Shown: in pieces, positions 3,309-28,618 of the stretch
Layout of the letters: every line of letters starts with the position of its first letter
Numbering within the stretch: position 1 is the stretch's first letter
DNA from: a virus
DNA length: 44,852 nt
IMG/VR virus record: IMGVR_UViG_3300043410_001734
Span: 1-44,852 of that record
Direction: 5' to 3' (one strand)
Position numbers and translations under genes: made by a program
Notes under the pieces: model-generated
The model's database searches: none
What the model was told of the DNA's origin: nothing
What the model saw: the letters and a program-made list of their open reading frames with translations, nothing else

Positions 3309-3905
3309 CTATCGTTTGGTGACTATCTGATCCGCTAGTCCGTAGGCCACAGCTTCTGTAGCACTCATAAAGAAATCACGTTCCATGTCTGCGGCAATTT
3401 CATCATACAGCTTGCCAGCAGAGTTGTGTTCCACGTAGATCTGCGTTAGATTACGCTTCATTTTAAGGATTTCTTTTACTTGGATTTCCATGTCTGTTGC
3501 TTGCCCGCCTGCACCACCCGAGGGCTGGTGAATCATGTGGCGAGCATTGGGCAGAATCATGCGCTTGCCTTTTGCTCCTGCTTGGGCAAGGAGGCTTCCC
3601 ATAGAGCAGGCTTGGCCAAGTACAATGGTAGAAACATCAGGTTTAATGAACTGCATAGTATCATATATTGCCATTCCAGCAGTAACGACGCCGCCGGGGC
3701 TGTTGATGTAAAATAAGATGTCTGCATTTGGGTTCTCGCTTTCTAGGAATAACAGTTGGGAAACTACAAGACTGGCACTGTGCTCGTTTACATCAGTGTC
3801 CAGCATCACAATACGGTCTTTGAGCAAACGGCTGTAGATATCATAGGCACGTTCTCCGTGGCTGGTCTTTTCTAAAACCGTAGGTACAAAATTTGGCATA
3901 CTCAC
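3309..3905 (-). CDS. clpP: ATP-dependent Clp protease proteolytic subunit ClpP
   Basis: The 198-residue protein matches ClpP over its full length. The catalytic triad is present: S101 in GQACSMGS, H126 in MIHQPSGG and D177 in ERDFFMS. The conserved INSPGG and YDTMQFI blocks are also there. ClpP forms a tetradecameric chamber that degrades proteins fed by ClpX or ClpA. A clpX gene with an intact ClpP-docking loop lies at 27.4-28.6 kb and clpS at 26.0 kb, so the phage appears to carry a full ClpXP. ClpP is slightly shorter than the E. coli precursor at the N-terminus. A sigma70-type promoter (3927-3956) precedes it. Confidence 0.97.
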
Positions 3906-8355: not shown

Positions 8356-8380
8356 AAAAGCCCCGAAAGGGGCTTTTTTT
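8354..8380. terminator. Bidirectional rho-independent terminator
   Basis: AAAAAAGCCCC, a GAAA tetraloop, then GGGGCTTTTTTT. It ends the plus-strand H1-like gene and, read the other way, metK. Its T-run touches the metK stop codon. Confidence 0.85.
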
Positions 8381-9497
8381 ATGACTTGAATAAATTAATC
8401 TGTTCCCAGGGTAACAAACTTTTACCAAAGTGTCCATAGTTAGTGGTCTGACTATAGATAGGACGAAACAAATCAAACTGCTCAATAATTCCTTTTGGTG
8501 TTAGATCAACTAATTTTGGAATGTACTCGCTTAGATGTCTACTCAGTGCAGTATCTTCTGTTTCAACATAAAAGCTCATTGGGTCTGCTAGGCCAATTGC
8601 ATAGCTGATCTGGCAGGTAGCCCATTTAGCACCCCAACGCCCGTCTGCCACAATGTTCTTGGCAATCCAACGCATCATGTACGCGGCCGACCTATCAACC
8701 TTTGTAGGATCTTTCCCACTAAAAGCGCCACCACCGTGTGGACTATATCCGCCATAAGTGTCCACAATAATCTTCCGGCCCGTGAGCCCAGTATCTCCAT
8801 CAGGACCACCAATAACAAAACGCCCAGTAGGATTAATATGAAACTCAGTGTTGTCATCTACATACCTCGTTGGTAACACGCCGCGAATTATACCTTCAAC
8901 CGCAAAACGCACCTGTTCAATGCTGACGTCCTCGCTGTGCTGTGTAGAGCACACAACCTTGGCAATACGCACAGGACTATTGCTGTTATCGTATTCAAAC
9001 GTGACCTGACTCTTGGCATCTGGCCCAATCCAGGACCAGTCTGGGTGGTTCTTACGCATCTTAGCCAATTGTTCAACAATCTTATGGCTCCAGTAGATAG
9101 CACTAGGCATGTAGCTGTCTGTTTCATCACAGGCATAACCAAACATCAAGCCTTGGTCACCTGCACCAAAGTTATCTGTGCCCAGTGCAATGTCTGCACT
9201 CTGAGCATGTAACAGATTGGTAATTTCAACTGTGCGCCAATCAAAGCCAGGTTGCTCGTAACCAATGTTCTTGATTACTCTACGCACAGTAGAGTCTACT
9301 TCTTCGCTGTGTAGAATAGCGTTTTTGTATTCGCCAGCCAACACCACACGATTGGTAGTAACCAATGTTTCGCAGGCGCAACGGGCACTCTTGTCTTCTG
9401 TGCGTAGTGTTAGATCCAGAATAGCATCACTGATTGCATCTGCTACCTTGTCTGGGTGTCCTTCACTGACACTTTCACTTGTAAATAGATAACTCAT
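8379..9497 (-). CDS. metK: S-adenosylmethionine synthetase
   Basis: The 372-residue protein matches MetK throughout: SEGHPDKVADAISDAILD at the N-terminus, the loop GAGDQGLMFGYA, GGPDGDTGLTGRK and the phosphate-binding GGGAFSGKDPTKVDRS. MetK makes SAM from methionine and ATP. The length is only slightly under that of bacterial enzymes, and no catalytic block is missing. It is the last gene of an operon with a small membrane protein and uvsE, with ATGA coupling to uvsE. A phage would need it to supply methylation or offset host SAM depletion; a methyltransferase-like gene lies 2.4 kb away. Confidence 0.97.
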   Translation of the reverse strand: MSYLFTSESVSEGHPDKVADAISDAILDLTLRTEDKSARCACETLVTTNRVVLAGEYKNAILHSEEVDSTVRRVIKNIGYEQPGFDWRTVEITNLLHAQSADIALGTDNFGAGDQGLMFGYACDETDSYMPSAIYWSHKIVEQLAKMRKNHPDWSWIGPDAKSQVTFEYDNSNSPVRIAKVVCSTQHSEDVSIEQVRFAVEGIIRGVLPTRYVDDNTEFHINPTGRFVIGGPDGDTGLTGRKIIVDTYGGYSPHGGGAFSGKDPTKVDRSAAYMMRWIAKNIVADGRWGAKWATCQISYAIGLADPMSFYVETEDTALSRHLSEYIPKLVDLTPKGIIEQFDLFRPIYSQTTNYGHFGKSLLPWEQINLFKS

Positions 9498-10528
9498 AAA
9501 ATTTTCAATTCCTTAGCCCGGTTGTAAACCTGCTCGCTGGCAAGGTTCTTGGCTTTGCTCTCGCACATGATGTCACCCCAGGGTAAGTGACTCAAAGCCC
9601 AATCGTTTACATCCATGTTCCAATAGAAGTCGCTGTGTGCCCGAAGGTGTTGCTTTTTATGACCTCCTGCAATAAGTCTCTCAAAATCGGGACGAGTTCG
9701 GGGGCAATGAGCCAGAAGAACATCTTCCCTACTAACAGAATAGTGCAGAACAGGACGAGTACCACGCCAACTGTCAATAACACGGCGAACACGATCATCC
9801 TCTGCCAGGATGTAGTCGCCATGCGAGTTGATCCAATGATGGTGAATGTCAAGAACAAGAGCCACATGTTCACCAACAGCAAGAGTAACGTCCAATCCAT
9901 ATTTCATCTCGTCATTCTCGATGGTAATTAGATTCCTAGCCTCGGGAGTCATGCGACCCAGAGTCTGTAGGAATTTTGCAGGCCCACCGCGCCCGCTAAG
10001 ATGCACATTTATCTTAAAACCATGGTCGTGCCAAGTAGCGCCGTAGCCCATCCACCGCGCCATGTCTACATGGTATTCAAACTCTTCAATACTACGCTCA
10101 ACGATATTGTCATTGTCACTTGCAAGAACACAATACTGGCCAGGATGAAAACTGAGGCGCACGTCAAGGGCGCGAGCCACCCGTCCCACTTCTGCAAAAT
10201 GTTTTTCGGCATACGCTCTAACATCAGGTTGCTGATAAAACCAGCACCAATCAGGCTGAGTGTACATAGGAAGAATATCGCTACCAATACGCACCATACG
10301 ACGTTCATGTGGCATACCTCCAACACGTTGAACAAGTTTAAGGGTTGATTGTAGATTATCGCGTACGATGTCCCATAGGCGTTCTACTGCCACATCACGT
10401 GTCTGACGGTTGAGCCAGGCCACTGTGGTGCTACGAGTATTATGGTCCGTGCTTGCAGGACGCTTGCCTGCTACTTCTTCAGGGGCATTGATCCATTTGC
10501 AAGCAAAGCCAATTCGTTTGTGTGTCAT
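9494..10528 (-). CDS. uvsE: UV DNA damage endonuclease (UVDE family)
   Basis: The 344-residue TIM-barrel enzyme has the UVDE signature blocks: RIGFACKW at the start, MVRIGSDILPM, LSFHPGQY, the metal ligand segment ITIENDE and LVLDIHHHWIN. It nicks DNA 5' to UV photoproducts, starting an alternative excision repair. The ATG at 10526-10528 is chosen because it overlaps the stop of the upstream membrane-protein gene (ATGA); an in-frame TTG lies two codons earlier. A phage copy fits a life in sunlit water, which is inference. Confidence 0.93.
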   Translation of the reverse strand: MTHKRIGFACKWINAPEEVAGKRPASTDHNTRSTTVAWLNRQTRDVAVERLWDIVRDNLQSTLKLVQRVGGMPHERRMVRIGSDILPMYTQPDWCWFYQQPDVRAYAEKHFAEVGRVARALDVRLSFHPGQYCVLASDNDNIVERSIEEFEYHVDMARWMGYGATWHDHGFKINVHLSGRGGPAKFLQTLGRMTPEARNLITIENDEMKYGLDVTLAVGEHVALVLDIHHHWINSHGDYILAEDDRVRRVIDSWRGTRPVLHYSVSREDVLLAHCPRTRPDFERLIAGGHKKQHLRAHSDFYWNMDVNDWALSHLPWGDIMCESKAKNLASEQVYNRAKELKIL

Positions 10529-10656
10529 TTCCAAGGGTCGCGATCACTAAGTTCGTTTAAGAAAAGATCGATTATTTTAACAAAGCCAATGATTACTATG
10601 CAGAGCATTCCGAGGCCTGCAACGAACATAAGAGCTGTGACAAGATAATCGAACAT
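10525..10656 (-). CDS. Small membrane protein (43 aa)
   Basis: The product starts MFDYLVTALMFVAGLG, forms one long membrane helix (about residues 5-32) and ends in a charged tail with SDRDPWK. It directly follows a consensus sigma70 promoter and is coupled to uvsE by ATGA. The function is unknown. Confidence 0.7.
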   Translation of the reverse strand: MFDYLVTALMFVAGLGMLCIVIIGFVKIIDLFLNELSDRDPWK

Positions 10657-13230: not shown

Positions 13231-13608
13231 ATGGACGATATAGCACTATTAGTCAACAAGTATGGATTCCCGATTGTAATGGCTGTCGGACTAGGATACA
13301 TTATTCAGTATGTTTGGAAATGGGCAACAGAAGAAGTCAAGCCTGTTATCTCAGAAGCAAACACAGTTTTGATTGCGCTGATTGATCGTATTCGTATGTT
13401 GGACAATGACTTGATTCGACTGAATCAAAAGGTCAATACAGTTTTACATCTACGCGGTAAGATGATTGAATCAGATCGTGTTATGGAAACGCAAAAGGTT
13501 GAAGCAGCCGCTAATGCCAAGTTCCATGAAGCCATGGACGAAGCAGACCACCTAGCAAAGTTTCCCAAAGAAGAAGAAGTGAAAGAAACAAAGCCAAAAG
13601 GCAAATGA
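13231..13608 (+). CDS. Holin-like small membrane protein B
   Basis: The 125-residue protein has an N-terminal membrane helix (GFPIVMAVGLGYIIQYVW). An amphipathic segment (VLIALIDRIRMLDNDLIRLN) follows, paralogous to protein A, then a long Lys/Glu-rich tail. The conserved order is short acidic start, membrane helix, linker, ALxxRxR helix. The start follows the previous stop by one base. It is probably the third gene of a late lysis-type or membrane operon. Confidence 0.65.
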   Translation: MDDIALLVNKYGFPIVMAVGLGYIIQYVWKWATEEVKPVISEANTVLIALIDRIRMLDNDLIRLNQKVNTVLHLRGKMIESDRVMETQKVEAAANAKFHEAMDEADHLAKFPKEEEVKETKPKGK

Positions 13609-13698: not shown

Positions 13699-14463
13699 CT
13701 ACTCCCTCATATCAGCAATAAATTCAGCTTCAGGAATGCGTGTACGGGTGCTTTTGCTACCCATAACAACCACAACACGATCACCTAGGTCTGTGGCAAT
13801 CATCATTGCTAAACAACCGCCGCTGGCAGTTATCCATCCTGTTTTGCTAACAATCACTCGTTGGGTCTTGCCTACTAGACTGTTTGTCTGCGGAAAGATA
13901 AGCCACTTTTTCTTAACTTTGATTTCAATGCGAGTTTTCTTTGCGGCATCTACTATGGGTTGATAGTGACGGCCAGCACGTACAAGTTGTATAAGATCTC
14001 TAGCAGTGCTTTGATTACGTGCATCCAGTCCGGTGGGCTCAAATACTCTGCTGTGTATCATGCCCAGGCTGATTAGTTTTGCGTTCATTGCAATCACACA
14101 GGCTTCAAACCCACCTGGATAATGTTCACATAGTGTTTGTGCGGCACGGTTATCGCTGTTGACCATGGCCAGTTCTATCAGTGTGCCACGACTCAGTGTT
14201 TGTCCTTTGCGTGGTAAACGATCACGTAGCTTGGTGCTTAGTTCTAACTGTTGGTCTAGATCTTGATGTGCGTCTAGAACTGTGATAACTGTGAGCAGTT
14301 TTGTGATGCTTGCAATGCTTCGTACTTCATCTATATTTTCGCTTTGTACTATTTTGCCGTCGCTGTCGGACACAAGCCAGCTTTTAGCAGTGAGTCCATA
14401 GGCGAGGGCATTGCTGCCAAATGATAGGGCCAATAGTATAGCTGTAAGAAAACGTAAACCCAT
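13699..14463 (-). CDS. Penicillin-binding-type D,D-peptidase (peptidase S11, PBP7-like)
   Basis: The 254-residue protein has a Sec signal peptide (about 1-21) and all three serine D,D-peptidase motifs: SITK (S52, K55), SDN (103-105) and KTG (207-209). This is the core of S11 carboxypeptidases/endopeptidases, which trim or cut peptidoglycan peptide crosslinks in the periplasm. It lacks the C-terminal beta domain and membrane anchor of PBP5-type enzymes, so it is PBP7-like and probably soluble or loosely associated. It lies 27 nt after the cyclase gene, so it is probably read with it. In a phage it could relax the wall for fibre assembly or lysis, which is inference. Confidence 0.9.
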   Translation of the reverse strand: MGLRFLTAILLALSFGSNALAYGLTAKSWLVSDSDGKIVQSENIDEVRSIASITKLLTVITVLDAHQDLDQQLELSTKLRDRLPRKGQTLSRGTLIELAMVNSDNRAAQTLCEHYPGGFEACVIAMNAKLISLGMIHSRVFEPTGLDARNQSTARDLIQLVRAGRHYQPIVDAAKKTRIEIKVKKKWLIFPQTNSLVGKTQRVIVSKTGWITASGGCLAMMIATDLGDRVVVVMGSKSTRTRIPEAEFIADMRE

Positions 14464-14490: not shown

Positions 14491-16542
14491 TTATTTCTCA
14501 TGTGCGACGAACTCGCCGTTCCAGTTGTCTGGCAAGTCTTGTTGCTTCATAAACTCACAACGTTCGATCCAGATCTTATAATACTTGTCCATCTGTCCGC
14601 CAAAGTTGCCAATTAACTTCTTACACATAGCGGCAGCTTCATCAAACTTCTTGGCTTTGTACAAGGCGTGCATTTTATTGTGCTGTTCACGATCCTTGGT
14701 ATAGTCAGCGCCTTTGGTACGCAAGGCTGTGTAGATCAAGTCTGCCACAGTCTTGCCTTTTGGCTGTAGATTATCCAGCAACAAGTAGAAGAAATCGTCT
14801 TTGGTTCTATTGTATGTCTCTGCACCTATTATACACAAAACTCCATAGGCTTTGCAACGAGCTTCTAGTCGAGCGGCTGTACTAACCATGTCACCTAAGA
14901 TGTCGTAGCTGTGTCGTTCAGTGCTACCCATTTCACCAATAAAGCCAATGCCTGAGTTACAACCCCAACCCATTGCGGCAGGAGGTAGGCCTTGTGCTTC
15001 CATGATCTTGGTATACTCATCAACAGCATCCAACATTTCAAGACCCACTTTGACAATGGTCTTGGCATGGTCTGGATCATCAATAGGAGCACCATGTATG
15101 TGCATACTTGCATCGCCTACATACTTGATAACCATACCTTTGTTATCTAGCATTGGCTTGCTAATAGCATCCATGTAACCGTTCATGTATTTGGTAAGTC
15201 CAGCAACGTCATCGCCATAGTGTTCACCAATAGGAGTAAAGCCGCGCAGGTCACTGAACATAACTGAAACGTCTTTGCGTACACCACGCTTGATAAGCTC
15301 TGGATCTTTCTGCAACATCTCCACAACTTCTTTTGAGCAATAGCCAGCAAACTGTTTCTTTATGGCCTGCTTCTGGAGGAACTCTGATACGAACTTGACA
15401 CCGTAGGCATGCAAAGCGACCAGGATTGTGCCACTTGTAAAGGCAGTAGCGTCAAATAGGAATAGAAAATTAGCGTAAAGATAGTGGCCGAGATAAACAC
15501 CGCCAGCAGCCAAAATAACAGTTGTCGCAAGGCCAACATATACATACCTCGTTAAGAAAAGTAATAGCAGTCCACCTGCAAACATGGCAACAATTTCTAA
15601 ACCATCTGCATAGTCGGGACGCTGAATAGTAACGCCATTGAACATGGTGCCAATCACTGCGGCTTGTGCTTGGTTAGGATATACCGCGCCAATGCTGGTA
15701 GGCACAGGATTACTGATACCAGCGGCAGTTGGGCCAACCAGCACCACTGCACCTTTAAGGTCATCTGGCAGTTCTGTGATACTGTAGCTCTGTGAACGTT
15801 GACTCCAGTCGATCCAGATGCGTCCGTAGTTGTCAGTGCTGATAGGACCAAATTTCGGAATACGCATTTTCTCAACGCCGCCTTCGTTTAGTTTGACCTG
15901 GAATGTGTCATCACCTGCAGCCACACGCAACACTTCCATACTCAAGCTAGGATACAAGATGTCCTTGCTACCAAATATCAAAGGAATACGACGGTTAACA
16001 CCGTCTACTTCAGGTAGCGTGTGTGCGCCACCAATGCCTGCGGCGGCATTTTCAATCTGTGGAATGTTGGCAATGATGCCGGGGTATGTGATAATCTGAT
16101 CAATCCACTCTGGGCCTAGCACAGCCGATCCCGGATTGCGTGGTGTGTTCTTTTGTACTTCGCCAGGCACGTTGGCAATGATAACAGGATACTTTTCCAT
16201 TGTGGCGGCTAATACAGCATCGCCACCCAGTCTATCTGCTTCAGGCATGAGCACGTTTAGCACAACAAGACCTGCACCACGACGATACAAGTCCTCAATC
16301 ATGGCCGCGTACACATCACGCTTAAACGGCCATTGTCCGTATTTGTCTAGTGCTTTTTGATCTATGTTGGCCGTTACAATGTTATTTTGTGTAGGCTCTT
16401 TGGCGCTGATCAATGTATCAAAGTAACGTAGTCTTACGCTTTCTACAAAGACAGGATCAGCGATTCTTATACTTACTAAAAGTACCAATGTCAGCAATGC
16501 TGTCCATGGACTCAACAACAGGGTTTTGAGTGTTTTGTTCAT
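14491..16542 (-). CDS. CHASE2-domain membrane adenylate/guanylate cyclase (class III)
   Basis: The 683-residue protein has one N-terminal membrane helix, then an extracytoplasmic CHASE2 sensor (about 30-310; NIDQKALDKYGQWPFKRD is typical). Three membrane helices follow (about 315-385), then a class III cyclase domain (about 420-600). Metal aspartates are D431 (MFSDLRGF) and D477 (KYVGDASM). K473 and D547 fit the purine-recognising pair of adenylate cyclases. R558 is present in AARLE. The transition-state Asn of GDxVNxAxR is Ser (S554), so activity needs testing. A C-terminal 80-residue helical extension follows. It would make cAMP in response to an envelope signal. It lies at the end of the curli/FecR locus; bacteria often pair FecR-domain and CHASE2-cyclase genes. 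Confidence 0.92.
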   Translation of the reverse strand: MNKTLKTLLLSPWTALLTLVLLVSIRIADPVFVESVRLRYFDTLISAKEPTQNNIVTANIDQKALDKYGQWPFKRDVYAAMIEDLYRRGAGLVVLNVLMPEADRLGGDAVLAATMEKYPVIIANVPGEVQKNTPRNPGSAVLGPEWIDQIITYPGIIANIPQIENAAAGIGGAHTLPEVDGVNRRIPLIFGSKDILYPSLSMEVLRVAAGDDTFQVKLNEGGVEKMRIPKFGPISTDNYGRIWIDWSQRSQSYSITELPDDLKGAVVLVGPTAAGISNPVPTSIGAVYPNQAQAAVIGTMFNGVTIQRPDYADGLEIVAMFAGGLLLLFLTRYVYVGLATTVILAAGGVYLGHYLYANFLFLFDATAFTSGTILVALHAYGVKFVSEFLQKQAIKKQFAGYCSKEVVEMLQKDPELIKRGVRKDVSVMFSDLRGFTPIGEHYGDDVAGLTKYMNGYMDAISKPMLDNKGMVIKYVGDASMHIHGAPIDDPDHAKTIVKVGLEMLDAVDEYTKIMEAQGLPPAAMGWGCNSGIGFIGEMGSTERHSYDILGDMVSTAARLEARCKAYGVLCIIGAETYNRTKDDFFYLLLDNLQPKGKTVADLIYTALRTKGADYTKDREQHNKMHALYKAKKFDEAAAMCKKLIGNFGGQMDKYYKIWIERCEFMKQQDLPDNWNGEFVAHEK

Positions 16543-16550
16543 AAGAATAT

Positions 16551-17363
16551 TTAGTTTTCAAGGAACTTGGTTAAGTCGGTGACTAACTCTGGGGTAAGCA
16601 TGTTAAACAGTTGTTGCCGCATGGTTAACATTTTTACTGTGGGTACTTCTAACTGTTTTAGCCATTGCTGTATCATTAACTTACCTAGTTTAACGTTTGA
16701 CTCTAGTTCAAATATGGCATTATATTCTACATATTGTCCAGGGTCTTGTTCAAGGCCAATGGACTGTGCGTACACATCGTATAGCACAAACTCACTTGCA
16801 CCTGTGCCACTCCAGGGCGCAATTGAAAACTCGTTGAACAGGTCTCTTAGACCGTTTACTCCAAGATGTTCAATTAAACTTTGTGCGGCTTGGATGTCTA
16901 TGGGATATGGTGTGGTAATGCCTCTTATATCATACTCGCCATATTTTTTACAGCAGTCAATATAAAAGTTTCCAAAGTTTACAAACACGCTCTGCGGGCG
17001 GCTTTGTCTATGAAAGTCATCTAGTACGCAGGTCTTGGCAAACCAGTTCTTGGTGTCAAGTATTAGATAGTCGCTGTTGGTCTTTGTAGCAAAAATCAGT
17101 TTGTATATCTGCTGTCTGTCGTATTCGTGTTTGCACTGTTGGGTAGGATGATCAAAGAAATCCTGCCATGTAAGAATACACAACTCATGCCGAGAAAAAT
17201 ACTGTTTGCAGTTTTGATCAAACCATTGCATCCATGGGCCAAAGTAAACTTCATTGACTATTACATTGACCCGACAAGGTTCTAAAAATCGTGATATGCT
17301 TTGAGCTTGTATTAGAAACTGGTGCATATCACGATAGCACGTGACCACTAGTAATTGATTCAT
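16551..17363 (-). CDS. Glycosyltransferase-like protein (DUF6492-like), copy 1
   Basis: The 270-residue protein starts with a Rossmann-type strand (QLLVVTCYRDMHQFL). A GT-A-like core follows, with an LILDTKNWFAK segment that occupies the place of a nucleotide-sugar DxD motif. It is a clear paralogue of 24139-24924: both have VVTCxRDxxQF, INE, KNWF(A/I)K and a late EFVLYDxYAQ segment. A sugar transferase role is inferred from fold-like patterns, not shown. It lies between the small secreted gene and the cyclase gene. The two copies bracket the curli genes. Confidence 0.6.
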   Translation of the reverse strand: MNQLLVVTCYRDMHQFLIQAQSISRFLEPCRVNVIVNEVYFGPWMQWFDQNCKQYFSRHELCILTWQDFFDHPTQQCKHEYDRQQIYKLIFATKTNSDYLILDTKNWFAKTCVLDDFHRQSRPQSVFVNFGNFYIDCCKKYGEYDIRGITTPYPIDIQAAQSLIEHLGVNGLRDLFNEFSIAPWSGTGASEFVLYDVYAQSIGLEQDPGQYVEYNAIFELESNVKLGKLMIQQWLKQLEVPTVKMLTMRQQLFNMLTPELVTDLTKFLEN

Positions 17364-17702: not shown

Positions 17703-20232
17703 GACGAACCACTGTTGAGCAGCCTGCAGGGTTCGTACAGCTCTGAATAATAGTAAAGTTCTTTCCGCCCGATTGTTGTAGATCCAGCGTGGCAGCACCA
17801 CCTGCATTGGTTAGATCAATATTGGCTTTGTTTTGCTGTGAGCCATCTTGTACCACAATGGCGCTGTTGTTATTGCCAGTTAAGTTTGTTGTAAGCTGAT
17901 GCTGACCTGTGCCTTTTTGTACTGCATCCACGGTGTTGCTGTCGCCTGTGATTGTGGTAAACATGATTTTGTTACCGTTGTCTGTTTGACGTTTGGTAAC
18001 ATTGTTTTGGTTACCATTGATTGTTGTTTCTTGATAATGACTGCCCAGTGTGGTATTGCTTTGTTGTGTGGTCAAGGTGTTTTGATATCCGTTGATATCC
18101 ACTGCTTGGTAGTGTCCGTTTACACCTGTTTCTACACCTGTGTTGGTACGAGCTTGTCCAATGTTCAGTGTATTGGTGTCTCCAATCACACGCAGGTTGA
18201 TTTCGTTCTGTCCTGTGCCTGTGGTACCTTGCTTGACTGTGATATTATTAGAAGAACCTTGTATCTGTGCGGCAGCTTGCCCAATGCCTGATACTAAATT
18301 CTTATCGCCTACTTGTTCTATGTACAGAGTATTACCACTTCCATTGACATCTAGGTTAATGCTGTTGCCTGTGCCGAGAGTTTTGTTCTGCCAGTTGTCC
18401 ACGCGAGTCTGTTGATCAGTGTCAAGCCCTGCAGAGCTGTTACTACCCGAAGTAATAATTTCTTGTCCAGTGCCATTGGTCATTGTAATAGTTCCGCCCT
18501 CTACCACAGGACCTAGTGCCACGCTGGTGCCACTTACATTTACTACGTTAGAGTTAGAATAAACTGTGCCTGTGGTATCAATGGTGTTGGACTCTGTGAT
18601 CCAGCCTGTACTGAATGCAGAGTTAGGAATTGCCATTCTACCTGCGCCATAGTCCCATTGTAGCTTGAGTCCATAGCCGCCTGTGTCGTTCCAGTACCAG
18701 GCTTCAAAGTTATAGCTTTGTCCTGCTACTATATCAATCCAACCAGAACTGGTATATCCAAACACGCTTTGCAGTTGGAATGTGGATTGATCATTGATAA
18801 TAGTTTGTCCGTTTATCTTCATCACAAATCCATCATCGCTGTTGCTGTAAAAATACAATCTGTATACACTGCCTGCAGGATGATTCTGTGTTATTGGTGC
18901 AGTGATCGTACCGTTGTAGGCAACCAGTGTGCCATCTCCCATGCCTGTGAATTTACCATTGGTTGGAACGTATACGCCGCTGGTGGTCACGCCCGATGCC
19001 ACTTGATTGTATGCACCAGGAGATAAACTAGGCACACGATATGGTCCTAGCAAGTTCTTGGCACAGATACCAAACACACAGGTATAGGTGTAGGCATCAA
19101 AGTCATAGACTTTGTAATTCAATCCAGTTAATACATTTTGTGTTGTGATTGTTACTGCACCATTGGCTTCAATTGTTTTGTTGCCATTGGCATCTGTAAC
19201 GGTATAGATAGGTGTGGTATAAACTGTTAGCACACCATTTGCAATCTTGTTGGTTACTACATTAGACGCAACCTTGGTCTGGTACACAGTTTCTGTGCCG
19301 TTTGTACTAGTGCTGGTGCCATCGCTGTAGTTTGTTGTAGTAACTGGTGTGCGATATACTGTTACTGTGTTACCGCTGACTACTTGTCTGGTTGTGTAGG
19401 TTACTGTGGTGCTGGTTACTGTTGGTGCAGTAGAAGGTGTGCCTGATGTTGCGCCTGTGCCTGCATTGGTCACGCTCATGGTGCTGTTGTATCCGCCTGC
19501 TGTACCACTGGTGGTGCCACCTAAAGGGTCTGGTCCTCCACCATTGGCGTTAGCAACCAAACCGACTGTACTTGATCCTGGTACACCGTCGCTGTTTACA
19601 ATACAGGCATTGCTTCCGCCCCATGCACCTTGACAAGCACCAAAGCCTGGATTACTGGTCCAACCCTGTGCTGTTACGCCATTGTATGGACCAAATTCTG
19701 GGTTGTATGTTAAGTTACCGCCGCCATTCAATGTAAATGTGGGCGCACGATACCAAGGACCATAGTCACCTGCCCAGTAACTGCCATCAATACCATACAT
19801 GGCAACTCGAGCATAGGCCACCTGTGATGCATCTGCCGCTGATAGTGTTGCACTAACAGTTAGTGTTGACCAAGGCACTGAGGTATCAATACAAGGATTT
19901 CCACAAACAGCATTTGGGTTCGGCAAGTTTGCACTATAATTTGATTGAGCCGTGGCGCCAATTTGAACACCGCTGGCATTAAAGAATTGGATACGCACGT
20001 TGGCTGTGTCGCTTTGTCCTGCACGGCCACCACCGTTGTGTGCTAGTACACTGAATGTAAATGTACCACCTTGTTGCATGGTGCTATCAAACACCACGTT
20101 CTGACTGATTGTTGTTGTAACATAAGCAGTAGCAATGGCATTATAGTCTTGAGCTTGTGCTCGACCACAAAAGCCAATCATCAGCACCGCTACAAACAGC
20201 AATGCTGATATAAAAAAACGTTCATATTTCAT
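17698..20232 (-). CDS. Large secreted adhesin with PA14-like domain and C-terminal curlin repeats
   Basis: The 844-residue protein has a signal peptide (about 1-27), then a beta-rich N-terminal region with a disulfide-prone VCGNPCID. A Thr/Val-rich stretch with YRTPVTTT-like repeats follows (about 265-350), then a PA14/GLEYA-like sugar-binding domain (about 395-545; SVYRLYFYSNSDDGFVMKI). From about 600 to the end there are curlin-type repeats (N-x(5)-Q-x-G-x-x-N pattern). It shares a VNGHYxxVDxNGxxN module and a terminal FTIIQ with the small curlin at 21505-22275. It should be exported through CsgG and could cap, anchor or decorate an amyloid fibre. The ATG overlaps the FecR stop. Confidence 0.82.
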   Translation of the reverse strand: MKYERFFISALLFVAVLMIGFCGRAQAQDYNAIATAYVTTTISQNVVFDSTMQQGGTFTFSVLAHNGGGRAGQSDTANVRIQFFNASGVQIGATAQSNYSANLPNPNAVCGNPCIDTSVPWSTLTVSATLSAADASQVAYARVAMYGIDGSYWAGDYGPWYRAPTFTLNGGGNLTYNPEFGPYNGVTAQGWTSNPGFGACQGAWGGSNACIVNSDGVPGSSTVGLVANANGGGPDPLGGTTSGTAGGYNSTMSVTNAGTGATSGTPSTAPTVTSTTVTYTTRQVVSGNTVTVYRTPVTTTNYSDGTSTSTNGTETVYQTKVASNVVTNKIANGVLTVYTTPIYTVTDANGNKTIEANGAVTITTQNVLTGLNYKVYDFDAYTYTCVFGICAKNLLGPYRVPSLSPGAYNQVASGVTTSGVYVPTNGKFTGMGDGTLVAYNGTITAPITQNHPAGSVYRLYFYSNSDDGFVMKINGQTIINDQSTFQLQSVFGYTSSGWIDIVAGQSYNFEAWYWNDTGGYGLKLQWDYGAGRMAIPNSAFSTGWITESNTIDTTGTVYSNSNVVNVSGTSVALGPVVEGGTITMTNGTGQEIITSGSNSSAGLDTDQQTRVDNWQNKTLGTGNSINLDVNGSGNTLYIEQVGDKNLVSGIGQAAAQIQGSSNNITVKQGTTGTGQNEINLRVIGDTNTLNIGQARTNTGVETGVNGHYQAVDINGYQNTLTTQQSNTTLGSHYQETTINGNQNNVTKRQTDNGNKIMFTTITGDSNTVDAVQKGTGQHQLTTNLTGNNNSAIVVQDGSQQNKANIDLTNAGGAATLDLQQSGGKNFTIIQSCTNPAGCSTVVRQ

Positions 20233-21335
20233 TTCTGGATCAAGGTAATTGTTGTACCTGCCCCTTGGTTAACACGGTTCTTGAATTCTAGGCTACCTTG
20301 AGTCATGTAAATTGTGCTGTTCTGCGTCTGCGGTGTAGTAACACACATGATATCGCCGCCAGTGTCACGGCATAGTGTTACAAAAGGATCGTCCTTGGTT
20401 ACCACAATACCTGAGCTTCTACGATAGTCAGGCAACATGTTGTCTGTGTCTTTGAGAAAATCTTCGTCTAATGAATTAAACATTTGATCAAAAAAGTTAG
20501 CAAGGTAGTTGCTGTCTAAAAAACTGCGACTCAGCTTGTCTTGATACAAGTTAGCCATTTGTGCTTCCAGCACATTGTCTAAACCTTCAAACTTAAAAAA
20601 GTCCTTGTCCAATGGATCATTTGTTGCTTTGATTTCTGTACGACTTTCTTTGATTTCCTTAGGTGGTGCAACAATTAACATGTTGCTGATTGCATCTTCA
20701 CTTAGTCGCAACACAACAGGTTTAGCAGGTATTGCACTACGGTTTGCCACTCTTGTGGCCTGGAAAGGCTGATTCAATATAACCTGCCCTGCGTCACTTT
20801 CAACAATGATAGTGCCTGTTACACAATTAGATTCAATATCGTCTTTTGTTCTTGTTCTGCGATCGTTGGGACAGGACGGCAACAAGATAATTGTGCTCGC
20901 TCCTACTTCATCAACGGTTGCTGTGAAATCTGTACCACGCACACTGATAGTTGCGCTGGGTGTATTAACTGCTACTTTTTGCGGATCATTTTTGGCAATC
21001 TGTCCTGATGCATAGCGCACAGTACCCAGTGCCATGTTCAGCGCCAGCTTGCCTGATTTTTTATTAGGGTCGTAAACAAAGTCATCAATTACTAACTTGG
21101 AGTTTTCGTTTACTTGTACTCTAGTATCGTCAGCGAACGTAATGCCCACTTTCCCCTGTGCAGTTCGTATCGAATCCATCATCTCCACTGGACTGCCCTT
21201 GCCCCCAGTTAGAGTCTGTGACTTTCTTTGTATGCTGGGCGGTGTGTTCAATTGCTCGGTGATATTCCCGATCCCGGCGTAGCTCTGCGATATAGGCAAC
21301 AATAGCCCGCATAGTAGTTGCATCCATGTTTTCAT
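20229..21335 (-). CDS. Secreted FecR-domain protein
   Basis: The start is the ATG at 21333-21335, behind GGGGAG and overlapping the previous stop (ATGA); the longer frame adds seven codons. The 368-residue protein has a signal peptide (MKTWMQLLCGLLLPISQSYA) and a FecR domain (about 55-180). The domain shows GKVGITFADDTRVQV, LNMALGTVRYASG and the typical NTPSATISVRGTDF block. The C-terminal half is helical and unassigned. FecR domains of this periplasmic, anchor-free kind often accompany CHASE2 cyclases and large surface proteins. It is coupled to the adhesin gene by ATGA, suggesting a direct partnership. Confidence 0.88.
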   Translation of the reverse strand: MKTWMQLLCGLLLPISQSYAGIGNITEQLNTPPSIQRKSQTLTGGKGSPVEMMDSIRTAQGKVGITFADDTRVQVNENSKLVIDDFVYDPNKKSGKLALNMALGTVRYASGQIAKNDPQKVAVNTPSATISVRGTDFTATVDEVGASTIILLPSCPNDRRTRTKDDIESNCVTGTIIVESDAGQVILNQPFQATRVANRSAIPAKPVVLRLSEDAISNMLIVAPPKEIKESRTEIKATNDPLDKDFFKFEGLDNVLEAQMANLYQDKLSRSFLDSNYLANFFDQMFNSLDEDFLKDTDNMLPDYRRSSGIVVTKDDPFVTLCRDTGGDIMCVTTPQTQNSTIYMTQGSLEFKNRVNQGAGTTITLIQK

Positions 21336-21505
21336 TGATCTCCCCATTTGAACCAATATGTACGTTGAAGAACTCGCATGACTTCATCACCTGTGGTACG
21401 GTGCCATTGTGCGGCCCATTCTACAAACTTGGCCCAGTCACGCAGTGCGTGATCGTTGCCCTGGGCCCAAGCCTGATACATGTGATGAAGTTCGCGCTCG
21501 TTCAT
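21332..21505 (-). CDS. Small soluble protein inside the curli operon (57 aa)
   Basis: ATG (21503-21505) overlaps the curlin stop (TAATG), and TGA (21332-21334) overlaps the FecR start (ATGA). The product starts MNERELHHMYQAWAQGNDHA, is rich in Trp, His and Arg, and has no signal peptide, so it stays in the cytoplasm. Tight coupling on both sides supports it as a real gene. The function is unknown; a cytoplasmic regulator or chaperone for the curlins is possible. Confidence 0.7.
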   Translation of the reverse strand: MNERELHHMYQAWAQGNDHALRDWAKFVEWAAQWHRTTGDEVMRVLQRTYWFKWGDQ

Positions 21506-22275
21506 TAGTTTCTCTGAATAATTGTAAAGCTATTGGTACTACCAACACTCTTGATATTTGTTGTCATATCAATTGTACCACTTTGGTTAATACTTACCTG
21601 GTTGCTAGAACCATTCAGATCTACTTTGGCATAGTGACCATTTACGCCACCGCCACTTTGTGTAATGCCAATGATGTTGCTCGCACCAACTGTAACAATG
21701 TCAACTGTTCCTTTGTCGCCAGTTAGGTTCAAGGTTGTTTCGTTGCCTGTGCCGCCTGTTTGATTTACAGTAACAAGAGTTGCACCTGCATCAATTGTGG
21801 CAATAATTTTGTTGAGATTGCCAGACTGTGATGATGTAAGGCTGTTGTTACTGCCTTTCATGCTGATCTGTGTGTCTGTATTGTTACCAGCTTGTGTTAC
21901 GTTGATAGTGTTGGCTAGGCTGGATCTTGTTCCAGCATTGTTCATGTCAATCTTTGCAGTGTTATTATTACCAGTAACATGATATGTGATACTAGAACTA
22001 ATACCCCCTGCTTGGCCAGTTTGTGCGCCTAAATCCAACGAGTTCCCACTGCCTGTTTGTAAGATATCTACAGTAAGTCCGTCACCGTAGAGTTTGGCAG
22101 CTATGTCGTTGCTGGGTGCATTAACTCCGCGAACATGGTTGCTTGAACCATCTTGTGTCATTGTGATCGTAGCGTTGTCACCGCTTTGATCAATGTAGAT
22201 GCTGTTATCTGCCGCATAGGTAGACACACACATCATTGCAATCGCAAAAGCAATAACTGTTTTCTTTTTACTCAT
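21505..22275 (-). CDS. Curlin-like amyloid subunit (CsgA/CsgB type)
   Basis: The 256-residue protein has a Sec signal peptide (about 1-21), then about ten imperfect repeats with the curlin pattern, as in YIDQSGDNATITMTQDG and LNGSSNQVSINQSG. Regular Gln and Asn at strand ends are typical of CsgA/CsgB cross-beta stacks. It ends SFTIIQRN. It lies right after csgG, so it is the obvious export substrate. Its ribosome-binding site is far from the ATG unless a hairpin folds (22283-22318). It is larger than E. coli CsgA, and some repeats are degenerate. Confidence 0.85.
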   Translation of the reverse strand: MSKKKTVIAFAIAMMCVSTYAADNSIYIDQSGDNATITMTQDGSSNHVRGVNAPSNDIAAKLYGDGLTVDILQTGSGNSLDLGAQTGQAGGISSSITYHVTGNNNTAKIDMNNAGTRSSLANTINVTQAGNNTDTQISMKGSNNSLTSSQSGNLNKIIATIDAGATLVTVNQTGGTGNETTLNLTGDKGTVDIVTVGASNIIGITQSGGGVNGHYAKVDLNGSSNQVSINQSGTIDMTTNIKSVGSTNSFTIIQRN

Positions 22276-23582: not shown

Positions 23583-24071
23583 TTATAGTCCTGGTATCTG
23601 GAACTGTGCCAGTGGTATAGAGATAGTAGTGCTACTACCAGCTTGTGTAACGGTCATCTGAATGTTAGCTCCATCCTTGTACCAACTAACGCCTGTTAGT
23701 GTGTTACCGTTTACATCTTTTTCCATTACAAATGTACCTGCACAAGGATCCTGCGCTGTGGCGCAATTACCGTTGGCAAACATAGCGGTTGCTAGGTTCT
23801 GGCTAAACTGTGCATAGATACGTGATTCCAAGTTGTTCATAAACTTGGCAATGTTTGTGTTTTTTGCGTCTGCGGCTGCTTTATCCAATTCGGATTGGAT
23901 TTTATCTGCACGTTCTTTGGTTCGACTATGTTCTTGGTTTTCAATAGTCAAAACGTGGCTGCTATACCCTACGCCATTAAACGATGGGCTTTTGAATTGG
24001 AAATCATTGATTGGTGCCGCCCATGCGACTGTAGCGCAGAGTAGCAAGGTTGTTATTGTTATATTTTTCAT
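23583..24071 (-). CDS. csgF: Curli assembly factor CsgF
   Basis: The start is the ATG at 24069-24071, with AAGGAGC upstream; the longer frame has no ribosome-binding site. The 162-residue protein has a signal peptide and, right after cleavage (APINDFQFKSPSFNG), the CsgF signature that in E. coli (FQFRNPNFGG) plugs into the CsgG pore. The middle is helical (IQSELDKAAADAKN) and the end is beta-rich (IQMTVTQAGSSTTIS). CsgF sits at the outer mouth of CsgG and couples export to nucleation. No csgE is seen. Confidence 0.92.
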   Translation of the reverse strand: MKNITITTLLLCATVAWAAPINDFQFKSPSFNGVGYSSHVLTIENQEHSRTKERADKIQSELDKAAADAKNTNIAKFMNNLESRIYAQFSQNLATAMFANGNCATAQDPCAGTFVMEKDVNGNTLTGVSWYKDGANIQMTVTQAGSSTTISIPLAQFQIPGL

Positions 24072-24133
24072 GACCCACTGCTCCTTACTAGTATTTAAGA
24101 AAAGCGGATCCAAAATTTTATGCTCAGAGAAAC

Positions 24134-24147
24134 TTGTTCTAGAACAA
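24134..24147. repeat. Perfect 14-bp palindrome upstream of csgF
   Basis: TTGTTCTAGAACAA lies over the stop codon of the glycosyltransferase-like copy 2 and about 63 nt before the csgF ATG. It is a candidate operator for the curli operon. A weak late-type motif, TTAAATAC on the minus strand (24091-24098), lies between it and csgF. Confidence 0.45.
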
Positions 24148-24924
24148 ACTTTCGTTAATTAAATTTTCTAACTGTTCTAGATCTAGTTGTCGTAATGCAG
24201 TGGGGTGTATGGTCAACACATGATGTTGTTGATTGATTAAAAACTGTTTTATGGTGTTTAATGTTAAATCTTTTTCGTCATGCCAGAAGTTTTTGTATGG
24301 TATTCTTTCATACCCTGTGTCGGTTTCATAGCCCGCGGCTTGAGCATAAAGATCATATAAAACAAATTCATGTGGTTGATTGTATTGAACAAACCATTTA
24401 CAGAAAGATTCTATGCTGTCAAACTTGCTGAGTAATCCTTTGACCACAACAGGATCTACAATGTAGGGAGTTATTTCAGGGCGTGTTGGTAAAACCTCTT
24501 GCAAATCAAAGAGTTGCAAAGCATCTGCCATCATGTCTATGGCATCTGGTTTTATTCTTCTTGTGCGTTTAACAAAATCAGATTCTGTTGTGGGTTTTAT
24601 AAACCAGTTTTTAGAATCCAGCACCACATAAGGTGTATGGGTTTTTAGAGCAAACAACAGTTTGAATAACTGTTGCGTTTTCCATCCTGAATTTTTAAGC
24701 AGTATGGATTCTGAAACGTTGAAATCTTTGTGAGTGTATAGATGTACGGTATGTGACGGCAACAGTTTAGAGCACTCTTGCAAATACCAGACCAGCCAGG
24801 TAGAAGGATCTGGCTCGTTTATAACAATGTGTAGGTTAGTGGGGGATAAAAATTTGCCAGCTGTAAGACATTGTAATCGAAATTGATATCTATCTCGATC
24901 ACAGGTTACAACCAAGACGGTCAT
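24139..24924 (-). CDS. Glycosyltransferase-like protein (DUF6492-like), copy 2
   Basis: The 261-residue protein is a paralogue of 16551-17363. It starts with TVLVVTCDRDRYQFRLQC, has the NEPD loop and the YVVLDSKNWFIKP segment in the place of a GT-A DxD motif, and later HEFVLYDLYAQ. No signal peptide or membrane segment is seen, so it is cytoplasmic. It precedes csgF and overlaps the upstream gene (24921-24924, ATGA). A role in making or modifying a surface glycan next to the curli fibre is inference. Confidence 0.6.
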   Translation of the reverse strand: MTVLVVTCDRDRYQFRLQCLTAGKFLSPTNLHIVINEPDPSTWLVWYLQECSKLLPSHTVHLYTHKDFNVSESILLKNSGWKTQQLFKLLFALKTHTPYVVLDSKNWFIKPTTESDFVKRTRRIKPDAIDMMADALQLFDLQEVLPTRPEITPYIVDPVVVKGLLSKFDSIESFCKWFVQYNQPHEFVLYDLYAQAAGYETDTGYERIPYKNFWHDEKDLTLNTIKQFLINQQHHVLTIHPTALRQLDLEQLENLINESLF

Positions 24925-25253
24925 GCTGGCATTTGTAGCTTGGTAGATTTAGTTGTTGCAATACGATCCATGATAACTTGATAAAAGCTATCTAACTCTC
25001 CGCCAAACTTTCCTAACAGTAGATTACACAATTCACCGGCCAGTATGGTATTATCATTCTTTATAGCTGTGACCAGTTGTTCATGCATTTTGATATTCTG
25101 ATCCAGCGATGACATTTCCAATACTATTTTTTCCACAGGTAACACACAGAACGCCGGCACTGGACCTTCAGGATGAGGCATGGTGTCCAGTTCTAGTACT
25201 GTGTATTTTTGCTTCAGTTCGTCGGCTACTTCTTGTGTCAACACAATATGCAT
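24921..25253 (-). CDS. Unknown protein (110 aa)
   Basis: The start is the ATG at 25251-25253, behind AAGGTGGTGAC and 1 nt after the previous stop; the longer frame overlaps that gene. The product starts MHIVLTQEVADELKQKYTVL, has a Pro-rich turn (PHPEGPVPAFCVLP) and ends in a helical half that includes LLLGKFGGELDSFYQ. That last phrase resembles KLIGNFGGQMDKYYK near the end of the CHASE2 cyclase, which may be chance or a shared helical repeat. It is soluble, with unknown function. Confidence 0.68.
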   Translation of the reverse strand: MHIVLTQEVADELKQKYTVLELDTMPHPEGPVPAFCVLPVEKIVLEMSSLDQNIKMHEQLVTAIKNDNTILAGELCNLLLGKFGGELDSFYQVIMDRIATTKSTKLQMPA

Positions 25254-25254
25254 G

Positions 25255-25476
25255 TCACCACCTTGCAGATGCTTCTTTGAATGCTTGCATTCTTGCTTCT
25301 TTGCCTTGTTGTGCCGCTTGTTGGGCACTGGCAGTTGACATTTCTAGAATCAATGCCTGTTGCATCTCTTGCGTAATTTTTATGTTCTGTATGTCTTCCT
25401 CCAGGAACATTATTTTAGTGTCCAAGGCTCTGATCAGACTGATTACTTCATCTAATTTTTCTAATACTTCATGCAT
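25255..25476 (-). CDS. Small coiled-coil protein (73 aa)
   Basis: The start is the ATG at 25474-25476, overlapping the exonuclease stop by 8 nt. The sequence is a near-continuous heptad helix (VLEKLDEVISLIRALDTKI, then FLEEDIQNIK) with an Ala/Gln-rich end. It probably oligomerises. The function is unknown. Confidence 0.65.
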   Translation of the reverse strand: MHEVLEKLDEVISLIRALDTKIMFLEEDIQNIKITQEMQQALILEMSTASAQQAAQQGKEARMQAFKEASARW

Positions 25477-26021: not shown

Positions 26022-26339
26022 TTAGTTGTCCACTTCTAGTTTGATTTGCAATGGGAATCCATTGTTACGTGCAAGTACAGTGGCTTCAATTCCTTTTTGC
26101 TCGGCGATTTCGAAAGGATAAACAGCTACCACCCCAGAACCTTCTTCATGAATCTGCATGGTCTTTGCTTGTGCATCTTCTTCCTCGTAGCGGAAGATAT
26201 TCTTCAGGCATTCAACAATGAATTCCATGGTGGTAACTTCGTCATTGACAAAGATCACACGAAACATCTTGGGTTCTTGTATATTCAATTTGGGATCGTG
26301 CTTTAATTCTGTGCGAGGTTTAATTGCAGTATCAGACAT
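26022..26339 (-). CDS. clpS: Clp adaptor protein ClpS
   Basis: The 105-residue protein has an unstructured N-terminal tail and a full ClpS core: KMFRVIFVNDEVTTMEFIVE, MQIHEEGSGVVAVYPFEIAE and a final ARNNGFPLQIKLE strand. The ND pair and the Met-Glu-Phe helix form the N-degron pocket in ClpS. In bacteria ClpS delivers N-end-rule substrates to ClpA, which is not encoded here, so it may act through host ClpA or redirect it. It lies just before the exonuclease and behind the Hsp20 terminator, in a proteostasis block. Confidence 0.95.
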   Translation of the reverse strand: MSDTAIKPRTELKHDPKLNIQEPKMFRVIFVNDEVTTMEFIVECLKNIFRYEEEDAQAKTMQIHEEGSGVVAVYPFEIAEQKGIEATVLARNNGFPLQIKLEVDN

Positions 26340-26392: not shown

Positions 26393-26845
26393 TTACTTAG
26401 AATAAGTTATTGCAACCTTCTTGGGCTTTTGTGTTTCCGGAATTTTTTGTTCCAAGGTAACAGTCAAAATGCCACTGGCCACAACAGCACTAATGAGCTC
26501 CATGTTGTCATCTAGTGTAATTTTACGTTCGAAATTACGTGCGGCAAGTCCGCGATGCAGATATTGCCAATTGGCGTCATCCTCGCGCTTGCGCTCACCT
26601 TTGATGGTCAACACGTTTTGTCCATAAGGCGTGGTTACGGTTTCAATGTCCAACTCGTTTTCCAAGAATCCAGCCACAGCCATTTCGATCACATAACGGT
26701 TTTCCGATGTGCGAATAATGTTGTGTGGGGGATAGTTGTCGGGCTTGGCGCTCTGGAATGAGCGTTGAATTTCTTCAAACAATTGATCAAATCCTACAAA
26801 TTGACGATGTAGTGTAGGTAGGTCTAGGGTTACATAAGTAGTCAT
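26393..26845 (-). CDS. hsp20: Small heat-shock protein (Hsp20/IbpA-like)
   Basis: The start is the ATG at 26843-26845, with AAAGGAG upstream; the longer frame runs into the promoter. The 150-residue protein is IbpA-like: a TLHRQFVGFDQLFEEI start, YPPHNI, the alpha-crystallin core with IEMAVAGFLENELDI, GLAARNFERKI and SGILTVTLE, and a short tail with IPET. It holds unfolding proteins in the cytoplasm. It has a consensus promoter whose -10 coincides with a perfect TATAAATA late motif, and a roughly 55-nt leader with a UUCG-capped hairpin. Phage Hsp20 genes are known from cyanophages. Confidence 0.95.
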   Translation of the reverse strand: MTTYVTLDLPTLHRQFVGFDQLFEEIQRSFQSAKPDNYPPHNIIRTSENRYVIEMAVAGFLENELDIETVTTPYGQNVLTIKGERKREDDANWQYLHRGLAARNFERKITLDDNMELISAVVASGILTVTLEQKIPETQKPKKVAITYSK

Positions 26846-26904
26846 TTTATTTTCTCCTTTAAGCAAAATATGACTTGCAAGACCCCGAAGGCGTCTTACA
26901 AATA

Positions 26905-26935
26905 TATTTATACTTGAAATATCAAAGAGTGTCAA
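26905..26935 (-). promoter_or_regulatory. Combined sigma70-type and T4-type late promoter of hsp20
   Basis: Minus strand: TTGACA (26930-26935), a 17-nt spacer and TATAAA (26907-26912). TATAAATA (26905-26912) is a perfect T4 late-promoter element in the same place, so hsp20 could be read both early and late. Confidence 0.7.
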
Positions 26936-27177: not shown

Positions 27178-27413
27178 TAATAGTTCTTAGGAGGCAGTTG
27201 CTCGGCAGCAACTTTTTTCTGCCAGCGGCGTTTGGCTGAGTTTTTAGCCTTCTTACGTGCTGTGGTTGGCTTTTCATAAAACTCACGCTCGCGCAGTTCC
27301 TGCAACAGTCCGCTTTCTTGAACTTTCTTTTTGAATTTTCGTAGGGCTTTTTCTACTTGATCATTGACCACTTCGACTTTGAGCCCGCCTACATGTAAAG
27401 GTTTATACTTCAT
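27177..27413 (-). CDS. rpsU: Small ribosomal subunit protein bS21
   Basis: The 78-residue basic protein matches bS21: a short strand (GLKVEVVNDQVEKALRKFKK), LLQELREREFYEKPTTARKK and a Lys-rich C-terminal helix. bS21 sits near the mRNA exit region of the 30S subunit and helps Shine-Dalgarno recognition. Phage-borne bS21 is known in large aquatic phages and may bias ribosomes to phage mRNA. It overlaps clpX as ATGA. Confidence 0.93.
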   Translation of the reverse strand: MKYKPLHVGGLKVEVVNDQVEKALRKFKKKVQESGLLQELREREFYEKPTTARKKAKNSAKRRWQKKVAAEQLPPKNY

Positions 27414-28618
27414 GATTCTCCTGATTCAATTATATGTGTAGTTATCATATCTTCGCTAACTTGCAACACTTTTATGCCGTTTTTCTTTATGTCCCCAATA
27501 CCATAAAGATAAGGCAACATGGTTTGCTCAAGTATGGTTTTCAACCCACGAGCACCTATGTTTAGATCCAGTGCCTTTTGGGCAATGGCCAAGATAGCGT
27601 CGTCATCAAATTCAAGCTCAATGCCATCAGCTTGAAAATAAAACTGCATCTGTGCCAATAGACTGTTTTTAGGTTCTATCAGCACTCTGGTTAAGTCTTC
27701 TAGTGTTAGCGCATTCAATTCAACTGACACAGGAAAGCGACCAATGAATTCTGGAATCATTCCATACTTCATAAAGTCTTCTGGCAATGCACCGTAGAAG
27801 TCCTGCTGATTGTTTGTTTGTTTTGTAAACCCAATGCTGGTGCCTTTTTGTCTTGTTTCGATTATCTTACGCAGGCCTTCAAACGCACCGCCAGCAATAA
27901 ACAATATGTTGCTGGTATCAATTTCAACTGTTTCTAATGCAGGATGTTTTTTACTGCCATTCATGGTAACACGGCACTTGGTACCTTCTACCATTTTGAG
28001 CAGAGCTTGTTGTACACCTTCGCCTGACACATCTCTGTGCAAGCTGGCGCTTTCGCTCTTGCGCCCAATCTTGTCAATTTCGTCAATGAAGATAATACCC
28101 TGCTGACAACGTTCTATGTCGTTGTCTGCTTCACTGAGCAATCGTCCCACAAGACTTTCTACATCTTCGCCAACGTAGCCTGCTTGTGTTAGTGTGGTAG
28201 CATCTGCAATAACAAAAGGCACATTGAGATACTTGGCCACACTCTTGGCCAACAGCGTTTTGCCTGAGCCACTGGGACCAAACATCAGCAGGTTACTTTT
28301 TTCCAATTCTATCTTGGGTTTGAAGAACACTCGCTTGTAGTGATTGACCACTGCCACTGCCAGTGCAATCTTGGCATCATCCTGTCCTACCACATACTGG
28401 TCTAAGAACCTTCTAACTTTAACAGGATCCAACACCTTGGCAATCTTTTTGTCAGCCTTGATAGCATCAATGCGTTCACTGTCCAAGATGTTGCTACAAA
28501 GCTCAATACATTCATTACAGATTGCTACTTCGTTGGCCACAATGAGTTTCTTGACTTCGCTACGAGCTTTGCCGCAGAAGTCACAGCTCATGTGCCTGAT
28601 TTGAACTTCATCCGCCAT
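27410..28618 (-). CDS. clpX: Clp protease ATP-binding subunit ClpX
   Basis: The 402-residue protein is full length. It has the zinc-binding domain (C12, C15, C34, C37), Walker A GPSGSGKT (114-121), pore loop GYVG (147-150), Walker B IIFIDE (175-180), an RDVSGEGVQQALLK block and the ClpP-docking IGF tripeptide (262-264). The sensor-2 region (NIGARGLKT) is also present. ClpX unfolds tagged proteins and feeds them to ClpP; the intact IGF loop means it should dock ClpP, the phage copy included. It overlaps both neighbours (ATGA with bS21, 11 nt with the upstream gene). Sequence divergence from host ClpX could give new substrate choice. Confidence 0.97.
   Translation of the reverse strand: MADEVQIRHMSCDFCGKARSEVKKLIVANEVAICNECIELCSNILDSERIDAIKADKKIAKVLDPVKVRRFLDQYVVGQDDAKIALAVAVVNHYKRVFFKPKIELEKSNLLMFGPSGSGKTLLAKSVAKYLNVPFVIADATTLTQAGYVGEDVESLVGRLLSEADNDIERCQQGIIFIDEIDKIGRKSESASLHRDVSGEGVQQALLKMVEGTKCRVTMNGSKKHPALETVEIDTSNILFIAGGAFEGLRKIIETRQKGTSIGFTKQTNNQQDFYGALPEDFMKYGMIPEFIGRFPVSVELNALTLEDLTRVLIEPKNSLLAQMQFYFQADGIELEFDDDAILAIAQKALDLNIGARGLKTILEQTMLPYLYGIGDIKKNGIKVLQVSEDMITTHIIESGES

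Follow-up and report, generated by a model that had tools for sequence, protein, structure and literature searches.

The adenylate cyclase gene that closes a borrowed amyloid-fibre (curli) gene cluster in a freshwater phage encodes, with a probability of roughly two in three, an active but remodelled enzyme that serves as the regulatory output of the phage curli operon and reports the periplasmic or curli-secretion state during infection. The serine that it carries at residue 554, where an asparagine is usual in class III cyclases, belongs to a coupled set of changes in the catalytic site. What is new here is this variant, which a whole phage clade shares, together with its occurrence in jumbo phages and the signs of catalytic-domain exchange. 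The analysis covers the whole stretch of DNA, hereafter the window, namely the 44,852 nucleotides of IMG/VR record IMGVR_UViG_3300043410_001734 (positions 1 to 44,852). An earlier sequence-only reading had picked out the serine; its observation is confirmed and its interpretation is partly supported, while the curli/FecR operon around the cyclase had escaped it.

The cyclase and its predicted architecture

Over 14491-16542 the plus strand is riddled with stops, and the reverse strand reads as a single protein of 683 residues (Table 1). Its AlphaFold model (mean pLDDT 89.5) arranges, in order, a membrane helix, the extracytoplasmic CHASE2 domain, further membrane helices, a signalling helix (residues 365-398), the catalytic domain and a C-terminal helical domain. 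The Pfam match to CHASE2, hydrophobic segments near residues 5-36 and 311-377 and the modelled helices together give the layout of a CHASE2 receptor, and a Foldseek search with the model matched the catalytic half to CyaB, Cya2 and CyaC (TMt 0.88 for CyaB 3r5g), which assigns it to the class III fold. Pfam, AlphaFold and Foldseek agree on the sensor, membrane and cyclase arrangement first proposed from the letters, on the minus strand. Alphaproteobacterial CHASE2 cyclases such as S. meliloti CyaD1, CyaD2 and CyaK (PMC13001267) likewise join a CHASE2 sensor, membrane helices and a class III domain.

In an alignment with class III cyclases of solved structure, the metal aspartates D431 and D477, the adenine pair K473/D547 and the transition-state arginine R558 are all present, and S554 stands where the transition-state asparagine is usual, though not universal; these residues are exactly those that had been read earlier. 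A stand-alone protein of 135 residues encoded upstream of csgF (24921-25328, minus strand) matches the C-terminal domain of the cyclase through its own C-terminal half (HMM E 2e-5), and short proteins resembling it occur in nine further window-type loci.

Table 1. Cyclase, curli-cluster and neighbouring features of the window.
Feature	Position	Strand	Basis
Small one-helix membrane/coiled-coil protein, near the cluster in most phages	13231..13608	+	phrog_18771
D-alanyl-D-alanine carboxypeptidase (Peptidase_S11), downstream of the cyclase	13699..14463	-	Pfam
CHASE2 class III adenylate cyclase (putative), 683 aa	14491..16542	-	phrog_35576
C-terminal helical domain of the cyclase, residues 605-683	14494..14730	-	AlphaFold model
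Class III cyclase catalytic domain, residues 423-581	14800..15276	-	Pfam PF00211 (Guanylate_cyc), E 1e-14
Codon S554, the residue picked out earlier; Asn in bacterial relatives and HTVC008M-type pelagiphages	14881..14883	-	
Codon D547, where adenine is specified; bacterial relatives have Ser or Thr, HTVC008M-type pelagiphages Ser	14902..14904	-	
CHASE2 extracytoplasmic sensor domain, residues 18-324	15571..16491	-	Pfam PF05226, E 2e-37
Second secreted repeat protein (curlin2-like), 844 aa	17698..20232	-	Position; tblastn match to other phages' second curlin
Secreted FecR-domain protein	20229..21356	-	Pfam PF04773, E 3e-12; phrog_37870
Curlin-repeat fibre protein (CsgA/B-like)	21505..22275	-	Pfam PF07012, E 1e-8
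CsgG outer-membrane curli pore, 413 aa	22340..23581	-	Pfam PF03783, E 4e-50; phrog_20175
CsgF curli chaperone	23583..24113	-	Pfam PF10614, E 8e-8; phrog_35372

A curli cluster that ends with the cyclase

Read along the minus strand, the window holds csgF, csgG, the curlin gene, the FecR gene, the second repeat-protein gene (whose product gave no match in a Pfam search), two inserted genes (17377 and 16551) and, last, the cyclase. This is the full ordered set of a T8SS/curli cluster, and the order csgF-csgG-curlin-FecR-curlin2-cyclase recurs in Methylophilales phage Melnitz and Pelagibacter phage HTVC008M. Among IMG/VR loci with at least 5.5 kb of upstream sequence (67 of the window type, 53 of the Melnitz type and 22 of the HTVC008M type), FecR is found at 60/67, 53/53 and 21/22 and CsgG at 60/67, 51/53 and 21/22, respectively. 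The cyclase is the closing gene of the curli cluster in the window phage and in most relatives with enough flank. A phrog_18771 protein lies beside the cluster, on either side and either strand, in 59/67, 49/53 and 20/22 of the same loci, and the Peptidase_S11 gene is present at 39 of 80 window-type loci and at none of the other types.

In gene content and order the window resembles the pelagiphage and methylophage T8SS clusters (HTVC008M, Melnitz and HTVC023P-type) as these are set out in PMC9599517, PMC9004378 and PMC7029224; its cyclase is 47% identical to that of Melnitz and 35% to that of HTVC008M. It differs from the published clusters in belonging to a lineage with contigs of up to 357-364 kb, in its extra genes (16551, 17377 and 24139) and in its longer CsgG. 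In the last of these, about 140 C-terminal residues extend past the CsgG domain, with an end that looks SH3-like by eye, and are absent from Melnitz CsgG (278 aa). The genes at 16551-17363 and 24139-24924 (minus strand), one within the operon and one adjoining it, are apparent paralogues, faintly DUF6492-like (E 0.005 for 24139-24924), and their products are matched in at most one other phage locus. The histidine kinase gene that, according to PMC9599517, lies directly upstream of csgF in podovirus pelagiphages has no match in the product of either 24139-24924 or 24921-25328.

Among the bacterial relatives, a FecR gene is nearby at 25 of 80 CHASE2 cyclase loci, and tblastn with phage queries, which a distant CsgG could escape, detected no curli genes within 8 kb of any of the 80.

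A coupled change of the catalytic site

The loop around residue 554 was compared across CHASE2-cyclase homologues in an alignment of 243 phage sequences (the window and 242 relatives) with the 80 nearest bacterial relatives, sets picked by similarity to three queries and hence not random samples. The phage rows have serine in 160 cases, asparagine in 81 and a gap in two; all 80 bacterial rows have asparagine. Within the phages the pairing with residue 547 is strict, in that D547 accompanies S554 in 160 of 160 sequences of the window and Melnitz type (hereafter D/S type) and S547 accompanies N554 in 81 of 81, the HTVC008M-type phages among the latter, whereas the bacterial enzymes combine N554 with S547 (66/80) or T547 (14/80). 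D431, K473, D477 and R558 are invariant save for gaps over the phage and bacterial rows, as is the KGK loop.

The serine had been taken as a lone lesion, and this does not hold, for it switches with residue 547 and about nine other positions, namely 417, 439, 457, 470, 479, 481, 483, 537 and 555. The switches beside the metal aspartate (I479S, A481H, W483H) and in the base/ribose loop (547, 554 and 555) are nearly invariant thereafter. The catalytic site of the D/S phage clade has been remodelled as a set, with S/T547 changed to D, N554 to S, L555 to T and about eight further replacements. Since Ser554 is written with both AGY (85) and TCN (75) codons, it is the residue and not the codon that is kept. 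Two simpler accounts, a sequencing error in the codon, allowed for in the sequence-only reading, and a solitary loss of function, were rejected on the strength of the 160 sequences and both serine codon families.

The change is thus both genuine and out of the ordinary. When IMG/VR was scanned for the motif, at least 80 loci matched; of the 80 matches listed, 78 encode this cyclase family, all with Ser554. A slightly stricter form of the same D...S-T motif had no occurrence in 398 Pseudomonadota genomes, and no bacterial relative that combines Ser554 with proven activity was found, the nearest 80 all having Asn554. The possibility that the D/S domain was borrowed from an ordinary Asp-type bacterial cyclase was likewise rejected: the best 30 bacterial matches to the catalytic domain all have S/T547 with N554 and, the motif being absent from the Pseudomonadota genomes, no D/S donor was found within this sampling.

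Selection has acted hardest on this part of the gene. The median pairwise dN/dS is 0.063 for the catalytic domain, 0.121 for the C-terminus, 0.146 for CHASE2 and 0.248 for the membrane/linker part, rough values because dS is near 1.1, and the catalytic domain, under the strongest purifying selection, is the most constrained region of the cyclase gene.

Probable exchange of catalytic domains beneath a conserved sensor

The two halves of the protein give different trees. In the tree of the CHASE2/membrane half all phage rows form one clade, with the HTVC008M-type rows nested among the D/S rows; in the catalytic tree the D/S rows form one clade on a long stem, and the HTVC008M-type rows, together with IMGVR_UViG_3300017909_003066 (L135), fall among bacteria. 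AU tests rejected a single D/S clade forced on the sensor half (p = 0.012) and the sensor clade forced on the catalytic half (p = 5e-16), the trees being rapid ones with SH-aLRT support and long stems, and the tested clades having been named after the trees were seen. Because the sensor and catalytic trees conflict, phages appear to have swapped the catalytic domain at the signalling helix, and the simplest reading is that they trade the catalytic module beneath a conserved sensor.

By sliding identity, the partner changes near residues 385-410, at the end of the signalling helix; one phage cyclase (L080) is closer to the window before this point and closer to Melnitz after it. L135 joins a Melnitz-like CHASE2 sensor to a catalytic domain near the alphaproteobacterial ones and has a complete curli cluster. 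It was considered as an exception to the 547/554 rule and set aside as a chimera.

Spread among phages

The window record is viral, with genes for ribonucleotide reductase, virion proteins and a phage exonuclease. A membrane sensor of this kind had been thought rare in phages, a view that IMG/VR overturns: at least 578 stretches match the cyclase family, that many from one query alone. Among 50,697 sequenced phage records, by contrast, there are matches in only 9. Moreover, three window-type contigs of 357-364 kb carry a T4-type Gp23 capsid gene, and the window lineage therefore includes jumbo phages. The phage CHASE2 cyclase is thus not rare in nature and is a member of an already published phage T8SS/curli cluster; pelagiphage T8SS clusters that include FecR and an adenylate cyclase (PMC9599517), the Melnitz curli pore (PMC9004378) and the pelagimyophage curli cluster (PMC7029224) have all been described, in published passages that contain no discussion of a catalytic-site change or of domain exchange. 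A literature search on curli in freshwater jumbo phages and on phage adenylate cyclases added nothing further.

Two other features of the window deserve mention. Phage ClpP, a ClpS adaptor, Hsp20 and ClpX are encoded in this one 45-kb stretch (3309-3905, 26022-26339, 26393-26935 and 27410-28618, minus strand), and an apparent S-adenosylmethionine synthetase (8379-10534, minus strand; by eye) lies beside a UvdE-type UV endonuclease (Pfam E 8e-38).

Is the enzyme active?

An active adenylate cyclase is the likeliest reading of the D/S type, since the rest of its site is intact, co-varies and is strongly constrained, and Ser554, as part of a set of changes fixed throughout the clade, points to a probably working but altered enzyme. 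Against this stands the mammalian cyclase, in which the equivalent asparagine binds the ribose O4' (PMC10553838; PMC3591389) and its mutants show a kcat lowered 30-100-fold (PMC10553838). However, Ma1120 of Mycobacterium avium, which like the window cyclase has the K/D adenine pair and a replaced transition-state asparagine, is active, and putting the asparagine in drastically reduces its AC activity and abolishes its GC activity (PMC4215837). The asparagine is therefore not strictly required, with the qualification that Ma1120 has alanine instead of serine and is kin to the window cyclase through the catalytic domain only.

As to mechanism, K473 and D547 would form the canonical ATP-selecting pair, and Ser554 would replace, or dispense with, the ribose contact made elsewhere by asparagine. 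The CHASE2 domain would sense a periplasmic signal, of which the FecR-domain protein and the state of the CsgG/F pore are candidates. Gene order and analogy suggest that FecR or CsgG may be linked to CHASE2 in this way: S. meliloti CHASE2 cyclases raise cAMP on a protein signal received through an outer-membrane beta-barrel (PMC13001267), and in Burkholderia biofilm formation has been linked to an operon that encodes a CHASE2 kinase together with a FecR-domain protein (PMC5192318). The cAMP would then act on an effector that must come from the host, for neither the window nor any of 13 phage genomes yielded a cyclic-nucleotide-binding domain.

Among other explanations, it is unlikely, if conceivable, that the remodelled pocket (D547, S554, H481, H483 and E537) acts on GTP or a deoxy- or pyrimidine nucleotide, or is promiscuous, so that the signal is not plain cAMP. 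The joint switch beside the metal aspartate and in the base/ribose loop would fit such a change, as would the loss of the very residue that contacts the ribose; but K473/D547 is the adenine pair in its canonical form, the first position of which is Glu in guanylate cyclases (PMC3591389; PMC4215837), and no GTP-diagnostic residue has been gained. About as unlikely is a slow, attenuated cyclase in which Ser554 cuts turnover so that the cAMP signal is weak and finely tuned. The mammalian kcat data leave this half of the earlier interpretation possible, yet they come from single mutants in a site adapted to asparagine, and the phage site has switched as a whole; the behaviour of Ma1120 also speaks against it.

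The other half, according to which a catalytically dead receptor would bind nucleotide and block cAMP signalling in the host, is very improbable. The missing asparagine, and nothing else, speaks for it; the metal aspartates, the lysine, the arginine and the KGK loop do not vary over the alignment, it is not apparent how host signalling would be blocked, and a dead nucleotide sink is hard to reconcile with the constraint on the catalytic domain (dN/dS about 0.06) and with the activity of Ma1120 without asparagine. An artefact, be it a miscalled codon or a bacterial contig mistaken for a virus, can be dismissed given the sharing of Ser554 by 160 sequences, the presence of the operon in the complete genomes of the isolates Melnitz and HTVC008M and the T4-type capsid gene of the large relatives.

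Significance

Curli clusters are widespread in aquatic phages, and the published ideas on their role include sibling capture, superinfection exclusion, uptake and lysis timing. Because a product can be measured, the cyclase is the most testable part of these clusters. A more far-reaching proposal, offered as speculation with low odds, is that aquatic phages possess a distinct class III type (D547/S554/T555 with H481/H483/E537) that might handle ribose unlike every bacterial relative in this comparison, might make another cyclic nucleotide or one under different control, and might be traded between phages as an output module that plugs into different CHASE2 sensors of curli operons. The D/S enzymes also constitute a natural test of how far the textbook asparagine of class III cyclases is needed. 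Overall, the fixation of this catalytic site throughout a phage clade, its absence from 398 sampled proteobacterial genomes and its apparent exchange between phages as a module suggest selection on the signal itself during infection.
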